Under the pieces are notes generated by a model that saw only the letters and a list, made by a program, of their open reading frames with translations, was not told the DNA's origin and ran no database searches. Source: a virus. Taken from it: a stretch of DNA of 28,362 nt. Every line of letters starts with the position of its first letter. Positions within the stretch are counted from its first letter, which is position 1. Both the position numbers and the translations under genes were made by a program. Below, one piece after another: positions 1,567 to 13,699 of the stretch. Location of the stretch: IMG/VR virus record IMGVR_UViG_3300042887_001892, positions 1 through 28,362 of that record; one strand, given 5' to 3'.

Positions 1567-1911
1567 ATGCACTTCAACAACCTAAAACAATTCCTCGAAA
1601 GCGGACTGAGCCAAAAGCAATTCGCCATCAGTCAAGGCATAAGCGTAACCGGGATGGCCGACCGATTAACCCGCGAAATGAAGCGGTTATTAGCTACAAA
1701 CGTAATCGAAGCCAAACGGATCGTAGGCGAAGTATCCATTCATATTGATGACGTTAAACGTAATCGGGCTAATTGGCTCAAAGCTATTGAAGCCTATAAC
1801 CAAACAATGTGCGCACCCGTTGACATCAAAACCGATAACCGTAAGATAAGCGAATTGACGGTTAGTGAGTTTGTTGGGGTGATGATGAAGGTGATGGGCG
1901 GTGAACGCTAA
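1567..1911 (+). CDS. Small protein with possible helix-turn-helix (114 aa)
   Basis: Residues about 14-40 (GLSQKQFAISQGIS followed by a second helix rich in Arg and Lys) resemble a helix-turn-helix of the type found in small phage DNA-binding proteins; this is a pattern judgement, not a family match. The rest is alpha-helical and basic, with a hydrophobic C-terminal helix (ELTVSEFVGVMMKVM). The stop codon TAA (1909-1911) lies inside the 5' core of the first attC-like repeat, the same arrangement as in the next cassette gene, so its 3' end is shaped by that element. It could be a phage regulator or a cassette-borne gene. Confidence 0.55.
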   Translation: MHFNNLKQFLESGLSQKQFAISQGISVTGMADRLTREMKRLLATNVIEAKRIVGEVSIHIDDVKRNRANWLKAIEAYNQTMCAPVDIKTDNRKISELTVSEFVGVMMKVMGGER

Positions 1912-1980
1912 CGTTTGGTGGATACAGGCTGTGAGCGTTGGATTGAGGGCAGGAAAATAGCGTGTATGTGCTGTTATAAC
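1906..1980 (+). repeat. attC-like recombination site 1
   Basis: A 75-base imperfect inverted repeat runs from a CGCTAAC core (1906-1912) to a GTTATAA core (1973-1979). Inner arms GATACAGGCT (1921-1930) and AGCGTGTATG (1959-1968) can pair over most positions. The core layout follows attC sites (RYYYAAC ... GTTRRRY) with one or two mismatches. Its loop shares AGCGTTGGATTG (1934-1945) with site 2. It overlaps the stop codon of the preceding gene. Alternative: a Bacteroidota interspersed repeat unrelated to integrons. Confidence 0.55.
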
Positions 1981-2081
1981 CAATGCTTTTGATATGTAAA
2001 GAAAAGTGCCAAAACCTATACACGTTGTAAAAACATATAAAGAAAACATCAAATATAAATATGGAACACGAAACATCATTA

Positions 2082-2126
2082 AACCACGAAACCCCGCCAT
2101 CTTGTTTAGGTGCTGTTATAAGCCGT
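2082..2126 (+). repeat. Orphan 3' half of an attC-like site
   Basis: The stretch around GCCATCTTGTTTAGGTGC followed by TGTTATAAGC resembles the 3' half of site 3 (GCCATTTTGCCAAACTGC then TGTTATGCG). I find no matching 5' half between 1981 and 2081. It may be the remnant of a deleted or recombined cassette. A 30-codon frame at 2061-2153 crosses it and overlaps the next ATG by four bases (ATGA), but its sequence is largely the repeat itself, so I do not call it as a gene. Confidence 0.35.
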
Positions 2127-2149
2127 TTTTCTTCACAAATCAAAATAAA

Positions 2150-2323
2150 ATGAGAAGATTAACAGGAAAATATAGGATTCGCAAAACCTTATTTGGGTGG
2201 CAAATAAAAGTAGAAGTTTATAAAACAGTTTGTGACTTTGTTGGTGATGAAAGTCCAGATATAAAGGTTTGGCGAAAAGCAAGTGTAGAAGATTTGATTG
2301 AGTTAGGTATAAATTGTGCCTAA
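2150..2323 (+). CDS. Cassette-borne hypothetical protein (57 aa)
   Basis: I chose the ATG at 2150 (MRRLTGKYRIRK...) rather than the upstream in-frame ATG at 2006, because the upstream part reads through the orphan attC half site and has poor protein character. The product is basic at the N terminus and acidic in the middle (VGDESPDIK), with a beta-rich pattern, and has no recognised motif. The stop TAA (2321-2323) is embedded in the GCCTAAC core of attC-like site 2. A short unknown protein ending inside the repeat is typical of gene cassettes. Confidence 0.5.
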   Translation: MRRLTGKYRIRKTLFGWQIKVEVYKTVCDFVGDESPDIKVWRKASVEDLIELGINCA

Positions 2324-2400
2324 CGGTTTGCAGCTACACGCAGTAGCCGAAGCGTTGGATTGTGCGGTCGGGGCTATTGCTTGTAGGTGTTGTTATACGC
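2318..2400 (+). repeat. attC-like recombination site 2
   Basis: This is the clearest of the three. The 5' core is GCCTAAC (2318-2324, perfect RYYYAAC) and the 3' core GTTATAC (2392-2398). The inner arms GCTACACGCAGTAGCC (2333-2348) and GGCTATTGCTTGTAGG (2372-2387) pair with about three interruptions, giving the imperfect hairpin expected for a folded attC bottom strand. The loop carries AGCGTTGGATTG (2351-2362), also found in site 1. Length 83 bases is within the attC range. Confidence 0.65.
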
Positions 2401-2435
2401 TGCCTTTATTACTAATTTAATTTAAAAACAAAAAT

Positions 2436-2684
2436 ATGAACGCAAGAGAAAAAGCATCAGAACTTATAGTTGATTTTCAGCTAAAGTGTAAAACATTAGA
2501 CTATCAAGAAGCCAAACAATGTGCTTTGATAGCAGTTGAAGAAATATTGCATTGTGAAGCCACAGAACCATCTGATACTGATTGGGATGATTGCGGTGCA
2601 ACTGCTCAATATTACTGGCCGCAAAAGAAAGTTGATGCAGGTAAATTTTGGGGCGATGTCAAATCGGAGTTGCAGTCTTTGTAA
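2436..2684 (+). CDS. Cassette-borne small protein (82 aa)
   Basis: The protein is helical and acidic. Its start (NAREKASELIVDF), middle (AKQCALIAVEEIL) and end (FWGDVKSELQSL) match a pattern I recall from many small uncharacterised proteins of Bacteroidota chromosomes and phages, with an N-terminal 'AKEKA..L' helix, a 'CALIAVDEI' helix and a C-terminal 'W..VK.E' helix. Function is unknown. An A/T-rich stretch without a Shine-Dalgarno site precedes the ATG, and the stop lies four bases before attC-like site 3. An overlapping +1 frame (2536-2847) reads through the repeat and is a shadow. Confidence 0.7.
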   Translation: MNAREKASELIVDFQLKCKTLDYQEAKQCALIAVEEILHCEATEPSDTDWDDCGATAQYYWPQKKVDAGKFWGDVKSELQSL

Positions 2685-2688
2685 GGTT

Positions 2689-2823
2689 GCGTATAACGTT
2701 TCTCAGCTTGGCGAAGAAGCGGAAATCGAAGCACAAATGTTCGGTTTAGCACTACACTTCAATAGATGCACATACGTTCAATTAACCACAAAAACCGCCA
2801 TTTTGCCAAACTGCTGTTATGCG
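2689..2823 (+). repeat. attC-like recombination site 3
   Basis: A long (135 base) imperfect inverted repeat begins GCGTATAACG (2689-2698) and ends GTTATGCG (2816-2823). The arms AGCTTGGCGAAGAAGCGG (2705-2722) and CCGCCATTTTGCCAAACTG (2795-2813) pair at about 13 positions with small mismatches and bulges. The central 70 bases form a variable loop, as in the longest attC sites. It lies between the 82-residue gene and the Dam-like methylase. Confidence 0.6.
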
Positions 2824-2895: not shown

Positions 2896-3588
2896 ATGTT
2901 TTATTATTACGGAAGAAAAAAGCTACTTGCTGACAAATATCCAGAACCAATAGGTGATATTATTATAGAACCTTTTGCTGGAAGTGCGGCATATTCGATG
3001 GCAAAAAATAGATGGCAGAAAGATGTCGTTTTATATGATGATTATTTTGTTGTTGTTGAAATTTGGAAATACCTAATACAAGCAACAAAAAACGATATAC
3101 TTAATTTGCCTGATTTAAAACAGGGAGATGATTTGAGGAATATAAATTCATTATCAGAAGTTGAGAAATGGCTTATTGGGTTTCATATCAATCCGGGTTC
3201 GCCTACGCCTAAAAACGTTGCCACAAAAATGAATAGATGGGGGGCTGGTAAAAAGTATATTTCTGAAAATATCCACAAGGTAAAACATTGGAGAGTTTTT
3301 CAATCCGACTACATAAAGATAAACGAAAATTCAGGAAATATAACGTGGTTTATTGACCCACCATACGATAGAGAAGGTGTATATTATGTTAAAAATAGCC
3401 ACAACATAAACTACAATGACCTTGCAAACTTTTGTATATCAAGAAAAGGAAGAGTAATTGTATGTGAAAATTTTGGTGCAGGTTGGTTGCCATTTAGAAG
3501 TTTTGCGACAACAAAAAGTTGCGGAACAAGAAAAAGTATTGAAGCAATATGGACTAACTTTGAAAACGATGAAAGATTTTTATTTTAA
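2896..3588 (+). CDS. D12-class (Dam-like) adenine-N6 DNA methyltransferase
   Basis: The 230-residue enzyme would methylate adenine N6 in DNA using SAM. An N-terminal GRKKLL is followed by motif I EPFAGSAAY (residues 25-33), an acidic motif (LYDDY, about 46-50) and catalytic motif IV DPPY (154-157) preceded by WFI. This alpha-class order is that of D12/Dam enzymes; the length is slightly below the usual 260-280, mainly through a short target-recognition region. The gene follows attC-like site 3 and could be a third cassette, but I see no convincing attC behind it. With the beta-class enzyme upstream, the phage has two distinct methylases. Confidence 0.85.
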   Translation: MFYYYGRKKLLADKYPEPIGDIIIEPFAGSAAYSMAKNRWQKDVVLYDDYFVVVEIWKYLIQATKNDILNLPDLKQGDDLRNINSLSEVEKWLIGFHINPGSPTPKNVATKMNRWGAGKKYISENIHKVKHWRVFQSDYIKINENSGNITWFIDPPYDREGVYYVKNSHNINYNDLANFCISRKGRVIVCENFGAGWLPFRSFATTKSCGTRKSIEAIWTNFENDERFLF

Positions 3589-3716
3589 TGTGCGGTGGGC
3601 TTTTTTCTTTTTGTTTCTTAACGATAACTGTCTTATGAAAACGAATGGTAGCCATTACGCATAACTCCCAAATACACGCAATACCCTGCGTCTATTCAGC
3701 GTCCGAAATACCATAC

Positions 3717-3752
3717 ATTAACCCGCATTATGCCCTACAATGTAGGGTTAAT
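3717..3752. terminator. Hairpin at the junction of the convergent gene arms
   Basis: The perfect arms ATTAACCC (3717-3724) and GGGTTAAT (3745-3752) enclose a second, mutually exclusive perfect hairpin CCCTACA-A-TGTAGGG (3733-3747). It sits between the ends of the + strand methylase and the - strand phosphoesterase, where a two-way terminator would be expected. No clear T tract follows, so it may instead be an RNA-stabilising or Rho-dependent end. The remaining bases 3589-3716 hold nothing else I can recognise. Confidence 0.4.
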
Positions 3753-4951
3753 CAATCAATACATGAATGATTGATGATGCATTCATTAATCACCTTCCTG
3801 TCTTCATAATAGTTGAAACTTATGAACCCGCTTATCCCTTGTTGGAAGTTTACTTGCACCCATGATGATGATGGACTTAATGCCGGGTAGTTATAATAGT
3901 TGAATCTTTGAGCGGTGCTGCTATCAAATAAGTATTGGTGCGAATCACCTTTACTGAATTCGATAACCCCTTTTAGTCCATTTCGATCGAGGTAGTTATC
4001 AATCTTGTTTTCTTGTATCTTATCCAATTTCGGTTTGAATCCAAACTTTAAAGACACCGAATCCTTACCATGACTGATGACAAATGTGTATTTTCCGACC
4101 TTGTAAAAATCAATGAACTTTCTGATATTAACTACCTCAACATTTGGGAGCATCATCTCAATGGCTGTCTTGAATGCTGAATTGAGAATGTACCCAAAAC
4201 TACCTGCGTGATTGTCCTCGCATACATTGTGGCAAATGATATTATCGTAATACGGAGCTAACGATTGAACCAATTTAATCTTAAACCTCAATCCTACATC
4301 AAACGCTTTTTGGTTGTCCATGTTTTGCGGTAAATGATGTCCTTTTCGCACGGTTTGCGCATCGTAGCCGTCAAGAAAATCACCCAAGTCGTCAATGTAT
4401 AAAACCTTTGATTTTCTGTTTAAAATAGTGTGTTGAATCATCCTATCGCACATCTTGTCTAATTCGTATTCATCCCACAACCCGCCATACAAACTATAAT
4501 CTGTAATCATCATTCCAACGTGCGTATCGGTGTACACTAAGCGGTCAAATAAGGCCGTTTCAACTGATGGTTGCTTCTTATACTGCAGCGGTTTTATCTT
4601 TCCAAATAACGCCTTAAAATCAATATCTTCAACTCTTACTTCGCCCGCCTCCCGATAATTTGGATTAACTACAAACAATGATGCCTCCTTGTTTTTAATC
4701 CACATATTTTTGGTGGACGTATTCGGAACATCAAGATTATTTGTCGCATTGTACAACCCCTCATGCTCATCTAACAACCGCTTTTCATGTCGGGCTATAA
4801 ACCGCCTGAAGCCTCTTACTATCGGGTCTTCATCCCTTTTGGCGGTTGTGTTTAAGATTTTCTCTACTATCTTATAATGCCCCATCCCTTGCCGTAGCAA
4901 TTCGGCTATTTGAGCATCGTATTGGTAGTAGTCTATTGGCTTGTATGACAT
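3752..4951 (-). CDS. Calcineurin-like metallophosphoesterase with helical N-terminal region
   Basis: The five metal-binding blocks of the calcineurin-like phosphoesterase fold appear in order: D-x-H in YTDTHVGM (142-144), GDFLD in LYIDDLGDFLDGY (190-194), NH in EDNHAG (247-248), His in ISHGKD (294) and GDSH (335-338). These residues bind two metal ions and hydrolyse phosphoesters. The N-terminal 130 residues hold a possible winged or helix-turn-helix part (AELLRQGMGHYKIVEKIL). The substrate is unknown; nucleic acid or nucleotide processing is a guess. It is the last gene of the - strand run, nine bases behind the HExxH gene. Confidence 0.75.
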   Translation of the reverse strand: MSYKPIDYYQYDAQIAELLRQGMGHYKIVEKILNTTAKRDEDPIVRGFRRFIARHEKRLLDEHEGLYNATNNLDVPNTSTKNMWIKNKEASLFVVNPNYREAGEVRVEDIDFKALFGKIKPLQYKKQPSVETALFDRLVYTDTHVGMMITDYSLYGGLWDEYELDKMCDRMIQHTILNRKSKVLYIDDLGDFLDGYDAQTVRKGHHLPQNMDNQKAFDVGLRFKIKLVQSLAPYYDNIICHNVCEDNHAGSFGYILNSAFKTAIEMMLPNVEVVNIRKFIDFYKVGKYTFVISHGKDSVSLKFGFKPKLDKIQENKIDNYLDRNGLKGVIEFSKGDSHQYLFDSSTAQRFNYYNYPALSPSSSWVQVNFQQGISGFISFNYYEDRKVINECIINHSCID

Positions 4952-8840: not shown

Positions 8841-9523
8841 GGTGTATAGATATAAATTGGTGAATATGGATTGTTGCCTACGTTGTAGCCCGCTGCAAGG
8901 CCGTCATAACTTTCTACTTGTGTTTTGATGTCAATGGTATTAGTACATCCTGAGTTATTGGTCTTAACCCTTACAACGCATCCAGCACCGGCAAACATAG
9001 CGGCGGCATCAAGTATGATAATTTCGTTATCATTGTTGACATCAAGGTATGTAACGCCCGGCGGCACTTCAATATCAGGCGTAAATGAATCAACGCTACT
9101 CACAAACCCCAAACGAATAACCGTGCCGTCCTCAATGGCTGCGTTATCACTGAATTGGATAGCAACCTCAACGGTAAGCGTATTAGTTGTGCATGATATG
9201 AAGCCTATCAAACAACTTGTATCAACGGTGTTTTCTTCGGCATCGCCTGATTTAGCGCATGGCATTATCTTGACCTTTGCGCAGGCCAATTGAGTACCGT
9301 TTTGGTCGAACACGCCAAAGGTTGTATCTAAATCTTCATTGAAGAAATCAGCGGGTAATGTAAGTATTTCGCTATCTATGTCAACGGTATAGGCGCGTTC
9401 AACTTCGGCCCCGTTTAGGTCGTAACGAATAAATATCTTTCTTTGGCCCGTTACGCCAATGTCAAGCGTTATGGCTTCACAGCTATTTTTACATCCTAAA
9501 TCTGTTGGGTTATTGCAGCACAT
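8837..9523 (-). CDS. Cysteine-rich virion protein, possibly tail tube (228 aa)
   Basis: The protein begins MCCNNPTDLGCKNSC and contains about twelve cysteines. The rest is beta-rich and acidic with repeated Ig-like patterns (VTGQRKIFIRYDLNG; TNTLTVEVAIQFSDN). It starts directly after the stop of the upstream completion-type gene. Its place behind the connector genes would suit a tail tube or decoration protein, but the tail module here lies elsewhere, so this remains open. No enzyme motif is visible. Confidence 0.5.
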   Translation of the reverse strand: MCCNNPTDLGCKNSCEAITLDIGVTGQRKIFIRYDLNGAEVERAYTVDIDSEILTLPADFFNEDLDTTFGVFDQNGTQLACAKVKIMPCAKSGDAEENTVDTSCLIGFISCTTNTLTVEVAIQFSDNAAIEDGTVIRLGFVSSVDSFTPDIEVPPGVTYLDVNNDNEIIILDAAAMFAGAGCVVRVKTNNSGCTNTIDIKTQVESYDGLAAGYNVGNNPYSPIYIYTP

Positions 9524-10006
9524 TTAACAATCGCATGGGTTTAGTGAACAATTACGACCCGATATGAGTTGAGTTATATTGAAGTCAACAGATACCAAAG
9601 TCAAGTTTTTATTTGTCAAATCCTTGCCGGTTTCTTCTCTGAACACCGTCGTAGATTCTGTATTTGAACGCAAAACGGTATGGCCTTTAGCCGTTACCGA
9701 ATTGATTAATGTAGTTAGTATTTCTTCGGCATCACCATTGGCATACACCCCAACGATTCGGCACTCACTTACCGCCGAATAGAACTGAACATTTGCTCCC
9801 CGTCGTTGTGCATCGTAGTTAGTTCGGCCTGTGAAACGGATGTAGAAATGTTTTGTTTTGGTATCGGTTATGCCTTCAAAGTTTTGCCCGTCGTAATCCG
9901 TTAAGATATCTTTGCCTTCTATTTTGCGCACAGGAGCCGACCCCGTTATAAACGTGGCGTACTTCGTGAGCGCAAAATCTCGTATGGCTTCTAATATCTC
10001 TTTCAT
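9524..10006 (-). CDS. Putative tail completion/terminator protein (160 aa)
   Basis: The protein begins with a helix (MKEILEAIRDFALTKYATF) followed by beta segments, a layout common in tail terminator proteins such as lambda gpU, and it follows the HK97 gp10-like gene as those proteins usually do. Two C-terminal cysteines end in LNPCDC. The call is by position and shape only. It is packed directly against both neighbours. Confidence 0.45.
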   Translation of the reverse strand: MKEILEAIRDFALTKYATFITGSAPVRKIEGKDILTDYDGQNFEGITDTKTKHFYIRFTGRTNYDAQRRGANVQFYSAVSECRIVGVYANGDAEEILTTLINSVTAKGHTVLRSNTESTTVFREETGKDLTNKNLTLVSVDFNITQLISGRNCSLNPCDC

Positions 10007-10007
10007 T

Positions 10008-10562
10008 TTAGTTCGTGCGTTTATCTATGATGATTGCTTGTTTTATTACGTCCTCACGCATAAATTGTTTTTCTTCGGTTGTGAGCGGGTATATTTCGCC
10101 GTATTTCTCAGTCATGCCTTCGAACTTATCCGAAGCGCCTTGATTGGTTGTTCCGTAATAAACGGCTTCGCCTACTTTTACTACCTGAAAGCTCCGTTCT
10201 AAATCCCCGCTATATTTTGTTTTCACATTGTCGATTTCACGCCCTTGTATTTGCCTGAATCCTGAATAACCCGTAGTGATAAACATGGATTTACGCTCGT
10301 TCCCGTTCTTAAACTTACCTTTCTTTTCTTTGCCTTGTTGCTTAAACGCGGCCTTTCTAATAAATGCCGACTTTGAAAAATACGCGGGTTCTGTTGAATA
10401 TTCCCCGATTTGTACACCATCTGAATTCAATCCCAAATCAAATACTCTTTCTTTATGCATAGCCATAACTTCGGCCATTGTAGCTATTGCCAATACATCA
10501 GGCATTTGTCTGTCAAGATTTTCGGCCATGCCTTCGATTCTATTTATAAACTCCTCCCACAT
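10008..10562 (-). CDS. HK97 gp10-like head-tail joining protein (184 aa)
   Basis: The N-terminal helices (FINRIEGMAENLDRQM...) and the later pattern GYSGFRQIQGRE ... YSGDLERSFQVV ... VYYGTTNQGASDKFEG fit the gp10/virion morphogenesis family, whose members have an SG-L-S-S segment followed by YG and a KFEG-like motif. These proteins join head and tail. The gene lies between capsid-side and tail-completion-like genes, as expected. The stop of the upstream gene overlaps its start. Confidence 0.6.
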   Translation of the reverse strand: MWEEFINRIEGMAENLDRQMPDVLAIATMAEVMAMHKERVFDLGLNSDGVQIGEYSTEPAYFSKSAFIRKAAFKQQGKEKKGKFKNGNERKSMFITTGYSGFRQIQGREIDNVKTKYSGDLERSFQVVKVGEAVYYGTTNQGASDKFEGMTEKYGEIYPLTTEEKQFMREDVIKQAIIIDKRTN

Positions 10563-11548
10563 TACACATTCGATTTGATTTGTAAGCCTGAGCAGTCAAC
10601 ACATTTACAACCCCCATCCATACGGGTAAGATATTGCCGCATGCCCATCATGGCTTTATCCATGTAGTCACGATATGCCTCAAAACCTGCAACGGCCTGC
10701 GCCTTGATTTCTTCGGCTTTATAGATGGTCAAATAGTTCATTCGGTTGTTCCTCAACAATTCATCATAAGCCATTGCCCCACATAATTCATAAGCGGCTT
10801 GACCAATCAGCCCATCCGTAGCCATGTCACAAACAATGCTATCCAAATCACATTTCAAAATCATATCAACCTCAATCCCGTAGGTTTCATTTGAATTTAA
10901 TGTGTAGTTTCCACCGCTGTAACTTATGCCTTGTGTGAGCAGGTAGTTTTTATCAGCATGACACCCGCAATTTGGTTTAGCGCTGTAAAGGCTAATATCA
11001 GACGGCAAAGTTACCTGAACTTCAACGCCTTCTAAGACCTTGTTTAGATTCAATGTCGTTATGTTACCCGCTACTAATGAAACCGCTACGTTATAAGCCG
11101 TGCCGGTTCCTACATCGGTAATTCTCAATGTCGTATCTATTGTTTGATTCGAGTAGATACGAACACGGGTAACGCACATCTTAAACAACCTACACCAAAC
11201 CTTCACCTTCGATACAACAACCCCGCGCCTGTTACCTGCGCTCCCTGTTGTTACGACCGTTGAAGGCGTGACAAATTCAGACGCTTTGTAAACATCAAAC
11301 GGTATTGAATTAACCCTATACTCCGAATTAATATAAGCCTTAATATCAGCGTTCAGTTTCATCATTGCCCGCCGTCTTACGTCCTGAAGGAACTTTAACC
11401 CGGTCTGTGTGCGTTCATCTGCTGCGTTGGCTGCGAATTGCATAGTAATGCCCGGGTAATCGTTGATGTGGTAACCGCTTAAAGGGGTTACGTCCGATAC
11501 CCCTGTGCATGGGTCCTTAATCGCAATGATGTTATCTAAACAAGCCAT
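10562..11548 (-). CDS. Cysteine-rich structural protein behind the capsid gene (328 aa)
   Basis: Three parts are visible: an N-terminal region (DPCTGVSDVTPLSGYHINDYPG), a central beta-rich part that may bind or stabilise (VRIYSNQTIDTTLRITDVGTG), and a C-terminal helical part ending in GCKCVDCSG. There are about fourteen cysteines. It starts behind the capsid terminator, 53 bases from the capsid stop. Its place between the capsid and the gp10-like gene suggests a connector or neck protein, but I recognise no family. Confidence 0.5.
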   Translation of the reverse strand: MACLDNIIAIKDPCTGVSDVTPLSGYHINDYPGITMQFAANAADERTQTGLKFLQDVRRRAMMKLNADIKAYINSEYRVNSIPFDVYKASEFVTPSTVVTTGSAGNRRGVVVSKVKVWCRLFKMCVTRVRIYSNQTIDTTLRITDVGTGTAYNVAVSLVAGNITTLNLNKVLEGVEVQVTLPSDISLYSAKPNCGCHADKNYLLTQGISYSGGNYTLNSNETYGIEVDMILKCDLDSIVCDMATDGLIGQAAYELCGAMAYDELLRNNRMNYLTIYKAEEIKAQAVAGFEAYRDYMDKAMMGMRQYLTRMDGGCKCVDCSGLQIKSNV

Positions 11549-11561
11549 TTATTTTTGATTT

Positions 11562-11596
11562 TAAATGAAACAGGGCAGGCATAACCCGCCCTGTTT
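11562..11596 (-). terminator. Terminator after the probable major capsid gene
   Basis: Six bases behind the capsid stop, AAACAGGGC (- strand, 11596-11588) pairs perfectly with GCCCTGTTT (11576-11568), with two extra inner pairs, followed by a TTT-rich stretch. A terminator right behind one late gene would raise its relative expression, in line with a capsid gene. Some read-through is needed for the genes behind. Confidence 0.7.
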
Positions 11597-11601
11597 ACTA
11601 A

Positions 11602-12675
11602 TTAACAAGCTGGGTCAGCAAAAGGACAAATATCGTATTTGATAATGCCGTTAAAATCTGCGAATTTACAACCCGTCAGATTCAGGATTAACCACTTAAA
11701 TTTCAGGTCAATCTTCCATGTGAACAACTTACAACGTGGGTCATAAACCAAGTCGAAATCAAACAACATGCCTGTCGCAGGGTCTTGTAAGACCGTATGC
11801 ATGTAGCTGTCGTTGTTCGTGTTAATCAAGTCCATCGGGTCCATGTTCGACCAATCAATCTCACCGTTACGGCTTGCAAACATTCCTGAATTTTCAGACC
11901 ATGTTAACAGGTTCACGATTTGCGGTTGAACTGCAAACACAACTTCGTTACCGCCTGATGTAGGCGCTGTATTGGTTGCGTTGATGTTGATGTCATAGAA
12001 TGCCGGGATGTCCAACAAGTTCGCATTGTTGAATCCTTGATCGCTTACACCACCACGATTTGAAGCGTTACGCAAATAGTTGATTTGACGGTTACCGATT
12101 AAAAGCGGCATTGTCGGGTATCCTGCATCTGCGAAATCGTTTTCAATCATTGTGATTGTGTGAGGGTAAGGTTTACCCGTTGTAAAGTCCACCAACTTCA
12201 ACAAGCGCGTAGCTGTTGTGCTGTTGATTTCACCGGCGTTTGTGTTCAAACTTGTGATACCGATTAAATCAGCCTCAGCCTTTAATTTCTGCATCTGCTG
12301 ATAAACGGCATGGAACATGTTTTGTTGAACCGTCAAACTACCTAAGTCACGGAAACGAGAAACACCCGTTTTAAACCAGATACTTGAACGACCTGTGAAT
12401 GAATCAAATGATTCACATGTTGGAGCGCCCGTGTCAACAGGGACATCACTACATGCAATCGTGGATGAATCAACAACCGCGTTACAAACCTCAGACGGGT
12501 AAGTGATTGAATACTTTGAATCAAGGCCGTTTTGTTGAATCATTTGCGCCTGAACCTGAGCGCCGTTTTGAGCGGAGAAAGCCGCGTCGATTAGACCTGT
12601 TTGGGCCTGAAAACCTCTGTTTTGATAGAGGTCAAAAATCCCTTTCTGTACGTTAGGGGTGCAATTATTAGACAT
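11602..12675 (-). CDS. Probable major capsid protein (357 aa)
   Basis: It follows the scaffold-like gene, has a size typical of HK97-fold capsid proteins, and has its own leader and a private terminator. The N terminus has the helical and flexible composition expected (LYQNRGFQAQTGLIDAAF), with a long central helix (QNMFHAVYQQMQKLKAEADL, matching the usual spine-helix position), and a beta-rich C-terminal half (PLLIGNRQINYLRNAS). It has eight cysteines, several in the N and C tails, unusual for a capsid protein. A minor-strand reading of the middle frame (12342-12524) is a shadow. Fold not proven from sequence. Confidence 0.65.
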   Translation of the reverse strand: MSNNCTPNVQKGIFDLYQNRGFQAQTGLIDAAFSAQNGAQVQAQMIQQNGLDSKYSITYPSEVCNAVVDSSTIACSDVPVDTGAPTCESFDSFTGRSSIWFKTGVSRFRDLGSLTVQQNMFHAVYQQMQKLKAEADLIGITSLNTNAGEINSTTATRLLKLVDFTTGKPYPHTITMIENDFADAGYPTMPLLIGNRQINYLRNASNRGGVSDQGFNNANLLDIPAFYDININATNTAPTSGGNEVVFAVQPQIVNLLTWSENSGMFASRNGEIDWSNMDPMDLINTNNDSYMHTVLQDPATGMLFDFDLVYDPRCKLFTWKIDLKFKWLILNLTGCKFADFNGIIKYDICPFADPAC

Positions 12676-12686
12676 TGTTTTTTAGT

Positions 12687-12728
12687 TTTGAAGTGAACAA
12701 TTATTGGATTTTTTGTTCCACTTCAAAG
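12687..12728 (-). promoter_or_regulatory. Hairpin in the capsid gene leader
   Basis: On the - strand TTTGAAGTGGAAC and GTTCACTTCAAA form a 12-pair stem with one bulged G and a 16-base A/T-rich loop. It lies 12 bases ahead of the capsid ATG. It could shield the ribosome entry site, stabilise the capsid mRNA or act as an RNA processing site. It overlaps the end of the 45-codon open frame. Confidence 0.45.
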
Positions 12729-12838
12729 GCAGGAACCGCCAACATTTTTAATACTTGTGGGTGTTTATTAGGTACGCCCACGCACCAAATGTTGTTTGTT
12801 CTATGTGCCGTAACCAAACGGCGGGTTGCAAGTGTCTT
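12701..12838 (-). CDS. 45-codon open frame in line with and directly after the scaffold stop
   Basis: Directly after the scaffold TAA the same frame stays open for 45 codons: KTLATRRLVTAHRT, then NNIWCVGVPNKHPQVLKMLAV, ending in PAFEVEQKIQ. The protein character is good, but there is no ATG at its start. The first ATG is 31 codons in, at KMLAV. It may be read by stop codon read-through as a C-terminal extension of the scaffold, start at a rare codon (TTG at residue 8), or be a small gene with a sequence error near its start. It occupies most of the 163-base gap before the capsid gene. Confidence 0.4.
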   Translation of the reverse strand, partial: KTLATRRLVTAHRTNNIWCVGVPNKHPQVLKMLAVPAFEVEQKIQ

Positions 12839-13699
12839 TTAGTCCGCAGTCACACCAGCCATAACCTCAGCAAGTGAAGCGGCTGATTTCGCAGCGGCTC
12901 CCATTTGCTTTGGTTCCTGTTGTGATTGCGTTATTACCTTCTCATTGCCTGCTGATTTCTTCGCCGGAAGTTCGTTTTCGCGGGCAATATCAGCCACAAG
13001 CGCATCAAAGGTATATAATTCGGTCCCTGATTTCTTCAATGGTGTTTCCGGGTTCTTGATGTCGTATAGGCTCAATCTTCCATCATTACCGGCCTTGATT
13101 ACGGCACGCGCTTTGAGTTCTGAACGAATCAATTTAGCTGCAGCCGTTGGGTTAAGGCTTGTGATAGCTGAAACGGCACGGGATAACTCCGAATCCAAAG
13201 TTCGGTCGGTTTCAATCTCAGAAATACGGGCGTTCAATCGCTGTTCGTATTCCGAATCTTTGGCTTCAAGTTGTTCCTTTAATGTGTTTTTCTCAGCATT
13301 GGCAGCGTCCAACATTTGACGCAATTCAGCGCTTTCCTTTGGTGATAACTGCTCAATGGCTTTGGCATGAATAGAGGCAATGACGGCATCAAATGTTTGG
13401 CCCTGATTTTCGGGGTTAGATAAAATCTTATCAATTTCACCCGATGTCAATAGGTTACCGAATTGCTTGTTAAACTTTTGCACCATTTCTTTGAAGTATT
13501 TGCCCTTCATGGATTTGCGTTCGTCACTCATTTTCTCGCTGAATTCAGATTCCAAAAATGGACGGGCGTAGGTTTGCGACTTAGATAACAAGTCCTGAAC
13601 GGTGTCATCATCTTCAGCGTCCGCAGCCGTTAATTTGGCAATGAGTTCATCACTTGGTTCGATTCCTAAATTTTGTAAATACTTTTTTAAGGTTAACAT
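12839..13699 (-). CDS. Capsid scaffolding protein (286 aa)
   Basis: The protein is highly charged and helical, with a central coiled coil of about residues 120-170 (Glu-, Lys- and Leu-rich, e.g. AANAEKNTLKEQLEAKD) and an Ala/Ser/Gln-rich flexible C terminus. This composition and its place directly ahead of the capsid gene are those of phage scaffolds, which guide procapsid assembly and leave. No Ser-His-Asp protease motif is evident. A 43-base gap precedes it. Confidence 0.65.
   Translation of the reverse strand: MLTLKKYLQNLGIEPSDELIAKLTAADAEDDDTVQDLLSKSQTYARPFLESEFSEKMSDERKSMKGKYFKEMVQKFNKQFGNLLTSGEIDKILSNPENQGQTFDAVIASIHAKAIEQLSPKESAELRQMLDAANAEKNTLKEQLEAKDSEYEQRLNARISEIETDRTLDSELSRAVSAITSLNPTAAAKLIRSELKARAVIKAGNDGRLSLYDIKNPETPLKKSGTELYTFDALVADIARENELPAKKSAGNEKVITQSQQEPKQMGAAAKSAASLAEVMAGVTAD

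Follow-up and report, generated by a model that had tools for sequence, protein, structure and literature searches.

The virus record IMGVR_UViG_3300042887_001892 was analyzed over its whole length of 28,362 bases, which is referred to here as the window and is possibly a fragment. Near its left end, small genes alternate with folded sites, each of which begins with an R'' core and ends with an R' core. The initial annotation had recognized an array of attC-like gene cassettes at 1906–2823; the following elements are now distinguished.

1567–1911, + strand: conserved phage gene, function unassigned; left boundary of the array, its stop overlapping the first site core
1906–1979, + strand: predicted folded recombination site 1; R'' CGCTAAC, R' GTTATAA; scanner score 10.6
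2061–2153, + strand: leader frame with the translation MEHETSLNHETPPSCLGAVISRFSSQIKIK; begins within a half site and runs into the ATG of the next gene, which its stop overlaps
2115–2121, + strand: R' core of a broken site that lacks its left half; the related locus L004 diverges from the window at 2118
2150–2323, + strand: cassette 1 gene, 57 aa, function unassigned; common to the related locus L007, where similarity ends at 2326
2318–2398, + strand: predicted folded recombination site 2; R'' GCCTAAC, R' GTTATAC; scanner score 15.2
2436–2684, + strand: cassette 2 gene, 82 aa, function unassigned (phrog_21441)
2691–2822, + strand: predicted folded recombination site 3, a 132-nt member of the class; R'' GTATAAC, R' GTTATGC; scanner score 11.5
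2896–3588, + strand: cassette 3 gene, D12-class adenine methyltransferase (PF02086, 26.8 bits, above the gathering score)
3659–3665, + strand: last R'' core, GCATAAC, the 3' end of cassette 3; pairs with the R' core at 2816
3666–3697, + strand: attI-like docking site TCCCAAATACACGCAATACCCTGCGTCTATT, conserved in the phage family and matching a host-derived profile

A structure scanner built from comparative anatomy (YAACG core, 5/1 spacers, and a 20-bp stem) found exactly three sites in the 28.4 kb (1906–1979, 2318–2398, and 2691–2822), all on the + strand. It found none on the − strand, none in six shuffles of the window, and no match in 826 kb of shuffled sequence. The three inverted repeats of the initial annotation are real, and both of its small + strand genes (2150–2323 and 2436–2684) indeed terminate at a site core or shortly before one. 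The RYYYAAC- and GTTRRRY-like ends assigned to the repeats hold only approximately: the cores are similar, but the R' cores of the window (GTTATAA, GTTATAC, and GTTATGC) have T at position 5 and do not satisfy strict GTTRRRY. Folding of the strands, on which the annotation had counted for support, gave none, as the z-scores from single-sequence folding (−1.1 to +2.0) reached significance on neither strand. In a simple inverted-repeat scan (AAC/GTT with free gaps), the sites were indistinguishable from the background. Because lone-sequence folding and the naive repeat scan were unremarkable, the evidence for the sites rests on comparison.

The left-arm pattern of site 3 gave at least 119 matches each in bacterial genomes, mostly of Bacteroidota, and in viral contigs, and the window sites fall into a large class found in Bacteroidota and in phages of this phylum. 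Across 191 sites, a spacer of 5 nt follows R'' and one of 1 nt (T in 188) precedes R', and the 20-bp stem between the cores covaries and contains no bulges. Three stem positions are conserved as non-Watson–Crick pairs, namely 5 (C·A, 89%), 11 (G·T, 91%), and 14 (G·T, 98%); the remaining positions are paired in 82 to 99%, with several pair types at 1–3, 15, 16, and 18–20. Pairing in a divergent site set was 0.80 and fell to 0.24–0.34 when the partner was slid. Since pairing was among the criteria for choosing sites, the spacers and the fixed mismatches weigh more than mean pairing. A corrected one-mismatch site pattern was not used for prevalence because of single background matches; its reversed control pattern also matched some genomes. 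The 169,658-bp contig IMGVR_UViG_3300043411_001575 (L158, L177, L183, and L219) carries many sites of the class in several stretches together with its own recombinase.

Relatives of the window are closely similar to it to the left of ~1913 and to the right of ~3661 and mostly carry other genes between these points. The protein of the left boundary gene (1567–1911) is 91 to 100% identical in 11 related viral contigs, and similarity ends at ~1913. The break points against the relatives (1913, 2118, 2326, 2699, and 3661) lie on or near cores, which argues that the array reaches 3665 and includes the D12 methyltransferase gene. The extent given initially was thus too short: the array runs beyond 2823 through cassette 3 up to the attI-like site, where the conserved flank starts (3665/3666). 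A comparison of related phages for cassettes at this place, which the annotation had proposed, revealed different cassettes at the same position, with borders on cores. Clean exchange of this kind, confined to one locus and bordered by site cores, accords with the working principle of integrons, the site-specific capture and reshuffling of cassettes. In L002 and L004, the left part is as in the window and the right part is different, a pattern that entry of new cassettes from the right would produce. The 82-aa protein of cassette 2 is encoded at nine viral loci, where the right ends of the matches fall at 2697–2706. As this protein was almost absent from 198 Bacteroidota genomes, direct sharing of the window cassettes between phage and host was left unsupported. 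Profile searches against Pfam and PHROG gave no match for the 57-aa cassette 1 protein.

Match ends were counted in 243 oriented sequences with 598 sites. Only matches carrying gene sequence were used, since those confined to site bodies had dominated an earlier tally. Right ends fell on R'' in 77 cases and on R' in none, and left ends on R'' in 58 and on R' in nine, where chance predicts ~0.3% per end; these are unique query positions and not phylogenetically independent. Since the gene-bearing matches end at R'', the moving unit is taken to consist of a site and the gene behind it, from R'' to R'', the reverse of the canonical integron cassette. The integron cassette design perceived initially is retained insofar as gene cassettes are bounded by sites, but the unit is not a gene with its downstream site. 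A second line of evidence comes from the cassette ends. In 332 cassettes, agreement between the 5' end and the reverse complement of the 3' end of the same cassette reached 80/75/78% at the variable bases, compared with 44/33/27% within one site and 40/29/25% in shuffled controls, and the match extended over at least 11 nt with one fixed G·T position. The ends of window cassette 2 (GTTATACGCTGCCTT versus GTTATACGCAACCTT) and cassette 3 (GTTATGCGTATG versus GTTATGCGTAAT) match in this way.

The array stops at a defined boundary. In hosts, the sequence after the last cassette is YAAC|T.., typically TCGTTTATATGCGCAA, and usually lies ~75 to 110 nt from the stop codon of a tyrosine recombinase gene; in recombinase-bearing phages, it is YAAC|TAYTATATRTA, 57 to 83 nt before the recombinase start. 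With a profile made from 11 host attI-like sequences, the window boundary 3665/3666 ranked first of 594 candidates, scoring 11.5 bits against 3.1 for the next. Like a canonical integron, the window has an attI-like platform at one end of the array, here the 3' end. The right flank with this sequence is duplicated in L008 and split by another gene in L006.

These observations bear on two simpler explanations. The sites could be a dispersed repeat or a family of RNA or regulatory hairpins, with the genes between copies shuffled by homologous recombination. The site bodies are alike and could serve as homology, the G·T pairs fit an RNA hairpin, and the sites occur in very many genomes. Rfam detected no known RNA family in the window. 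The break points, however, lie on one short core and on one side of the site only, the matching ends are specific to the cassette, and the arrays stop at a fixed boundary beside a recombinase. The plain-repeat reading was rejected on these grounds, and we regard it as very improbable. The initial annotation would have given way to a dispersed family without any link to cassette boundaries, but the borders of exchange lie on the site core. A family of nonautonomous transposons with hairpin ends (miniature inverted-repeat transposable elements or IS200/IS605-like elements) would account for the terminal inverted repeats of at least 11 nt, but hardly for head-to-tail arrays in a single orientation at a fixed docking site, nor for cassette-specific ends next to a tyrosine recombinase; it seems extremely improbable.

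The initial annotation was correct that the window has no integron integrase (no TIGR02249 match above the cut-off), but an integrase for such arrays does appear to exist in hosts and in other phages, outside the IntI clade. In 30 site-bearing host genomes, no integron integrase exceeded the curated cut-off; most of these genomes encode a tyrosine recombinase that matches TIGR02249 in two pieces with the middle missing. The best-scoring ("core") family falls just under the cut-off of NF040815 (tyrosine recombinase/integron integrase) and well under that of TIGR02249. In the alignment to Vibrio IntI (2a3v), residues 180–241 are skipped and ~20 residues stand in their place, suggesting that the linked recombinase is without most of the region that holds the extra (I2) domain of IntI. 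A C-terminal SP(L/F)D motif is common to the core family and IntI. The core host genes adjoin the site arrays in a convergent arrangement, [sites →][← recombinase]. Among 15 core loci chosen by score alone, four were cut by the contig end on the array side, and nine of the remaining 11 had sites, all in this geometry. Score-picked loci of lower-scoring enzymes (335–390 bits) had no sites except L324 (two sites in another geometry), and 20 XerC/D-like loci had none in 369 kb. Around 73 phage genes related to the recombinase gene of the phage locus L169, 107 of 107 sites were upstream and on the same strand; the shuffled control of the phage-recombinase loci gave one site. In the phylogenetic tree, canonical IntI, the host core enzymes, and the phage enzymes formed separate, well-supported groups on an unresolved backbone, so that the linked enzymes fall outside the IntI clade. 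The phage enzyme L158, from contig IMGVR_UViG_3300043411_001575, was placed apart from the other phage enzymes. A core recombinase gene with two sites pointing at it is also present on plasmid NZ_CP041688 of Chryseobacterium sp. SNU WT5 (L432, 12001–22126), where the gene (12001–13044, + strand) is annotated as tyrosine recombinase/integron integrase and lies in the neighborhood of an IS110 element and a group II intron. Relatives of the core recombinase, with ~51% identity over its last 249 residues, are encoded on plasmids of Proteobacteria (Klebsiella and Aeromonas, H39–H43).

The locus could also be an ordinary cluster of attC sites lacking integron integrases (CALIN), that is, a fragment of a canonical integron as in other phages. 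The TAAC/GTTR core motifs, the small and promoterless-looking genes, and their single orientation agree with this explanation, and CALINs in phages are known (PMC9892861). Against it stand the bulge-less stem and the 5/1 spacers, the exchange unit that carries the site before the gene, the position of the linked enzymes outside the IntI clade, and the lack of any such site in the surroundings of 17 canonical IntI genes (104 kb). The canonical CALIN reading was rejected for the anatomy of the stem and spacers, the site-first unit, and the enzymes, and we consider it very improbable. The repeats are attC-like, as first described, in that they bound mobile cassettes; without bulges, with unequal spacers, and absent from canonical integron loci, they are not canonical attC sites.

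The position of the site ahead of its own gene means that it can act as the leader of that gene. A frame opened by an ATG within the site and extending 40 codons or more beyond R' was present in 114 of 267 viral sites (43%) and in 20 of 232 host sites; the antisense control gave 10 of 499. The most frequent distances from this ATG to GTT were 41 and 42 nt, with a strong frame bias (75, 54, 5). In the window, the leader MEHETSLNHETPPSCLGAVISRFSSQIKIK begins in what appears to be the right half of a fourth, broken site (~2061–2121); L004 and L009 carry this leader joined to different cassette proteins. Phage sites thus seem often to supply the start codon and an N-terminal peptide of the cassette gene. 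The isolate Polaribacter phage Freya_10 (L434, 3787–4962) has one site and one cassette directly before its integrase gene, and the annotated cassette gene starts inside the site; Freya phages 1–10 differ in genome length. The cargo is rich in DNA methyltransferases: methylase matches among 110 viral cassette proteins comprised 19 N6/N4, two C5, one MT-A70, and one Dam enzyme, and the methyltransferase cargo probably acts against host restriction.

Based on these comparisons, the locus is very probably an integron-like gene-capture array in a Bacteroidota phage, in which the exchanged unit is a site with its following gene and the array has a fixed attI-like end. The integron-like working of the system is well supported by sequence comparison, and membership in the canonical integrons fails. 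The suggestion that phages of Bacteroidota move integron cassettes stands to the extent that relatives swap cassettes between the same flanks, but these do not appear to be canonical integron cassettes. We further consider it likely that the arrays represent a separate class of integrons in Bacteroidota and their phages, with a recombinase outside IntI that lacks the extra domain and bulge-less sites before the genes. Phages, equipped with their own recombinase or with the docking site only, would have adapted it to trade small genes, many of them for methyltransferases, that receive their start codon and N-terminus from the site.

Here, we propose how such an array may work. The cut would be made at AA|CG on the coding strand, and the excised units would be circles. 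The two ends of a unit would pair with each other as its site folds into a long hairpin, which would explain the match of at least 11 nt between the ends of one cassette. The linked recombinase, to which linkage and geometry point, would act on the folded single strand and would insert the circle at the attI-like site. In the window phage, no recombinase gene is seen, yet a host-type attI is present; its enzyme is therefore likely to act in trans, our best guess being that of the host or of a coinfecting phage.

Several observations weigh against this proposal. The ends of window cassette 1 do not match, and this cassette looks chimeric. Two relatives other than L002 and L004 differ from the window at both array ends and not on the attI side only. 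L324 (G032, 9001–11995), G225, and G049 contain relatives of the recombinase with nearby sites in another geometry. No such recombinase was found in the window or in eight related records, all of which are fragments. The specificity of the enzyme for the sites rests on linkage, and recombination is inferred.

The phage genes of the window include a terminase large subunit gene (phrog_979) and a helicase fragment (phrog_62). The gene at 3752–4951 has its nearest relatives among the calcineurin-like genes of Cellulophaga phages, which makes a flavobacterium the probable host. To the left of the array, the helicase end and the N6/N4 methylase genes (1–1340) resemble one fused gene of L169 (3283–5493), which lies close to that phage's own recombinase and array.

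The arrays resemble canonical integrons in having folded sites with YAAC/GTTR cores between their small genes, cassette-specific complementary ends, a fixed attI-like end, and a linked tyrosine recombinase. They differ in that the site precedes its own gene, exchange ends at R'' whereas the canonical crossover is at R', and the recombinase gene is at the 3' end of the array. Judged on their anatomy, the sites also differ in having no bulged bases, 5/1 spacers, and three fixed mismatches; by its sequence, the enzyme lies outside the IntI clade and is missing most of the extra-domain stretch. The phage CALINs of Qi et al. (2023, PMC9892861) are likewise cassette arrays without an integrase gene and with methyltransferase cargo. 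They were found with canonical attC models, including that of Polaribacter phage P12002L, and IntI1 recombined five of the six sites assayed (PMC9892861). No clear array of the present site type was found in the P12002L genome. The available text of Smyshlyaev et al. (2021, PMC8138268) describes simple tyrosine recombinases that form an integron-like subgroup and have a variable insertion. This subgroup resembles the present enzymes at the sequence level, through the NF040815/TIGR02249 near-matches and the SP(L/F)D motif, but its members are not linked there to Bacteroidota cassette arrays. The reverse-orientation integrons of Spirochaetota (PMC9668308) also have an unusual intI direction relative to the array; the orientation of intI differs there, and a reversed cassette-to-site polarity is not described in the available text. 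Complete integrons have been reported as very rare in Bacteroidetes. No report of the present array class was found in open-license PMC papers (preprints were outside the scope), and the integron-like system of Bacteroidota and their phages is apparently undescribed so far.

Integron searches rely on models of IntI with its extra domain and of canonical attC, and for this reason a whole class in a major phylum could be missed. If the proposed mechanism is true, strand choice and polarity in cassette recombination would be possible without bulges or the I2 region, phages would gain a site-specific means of swapping anti-restriction genes, and the recombination site would double as a translation start that joins a common leader peptide to unrelated proteins.
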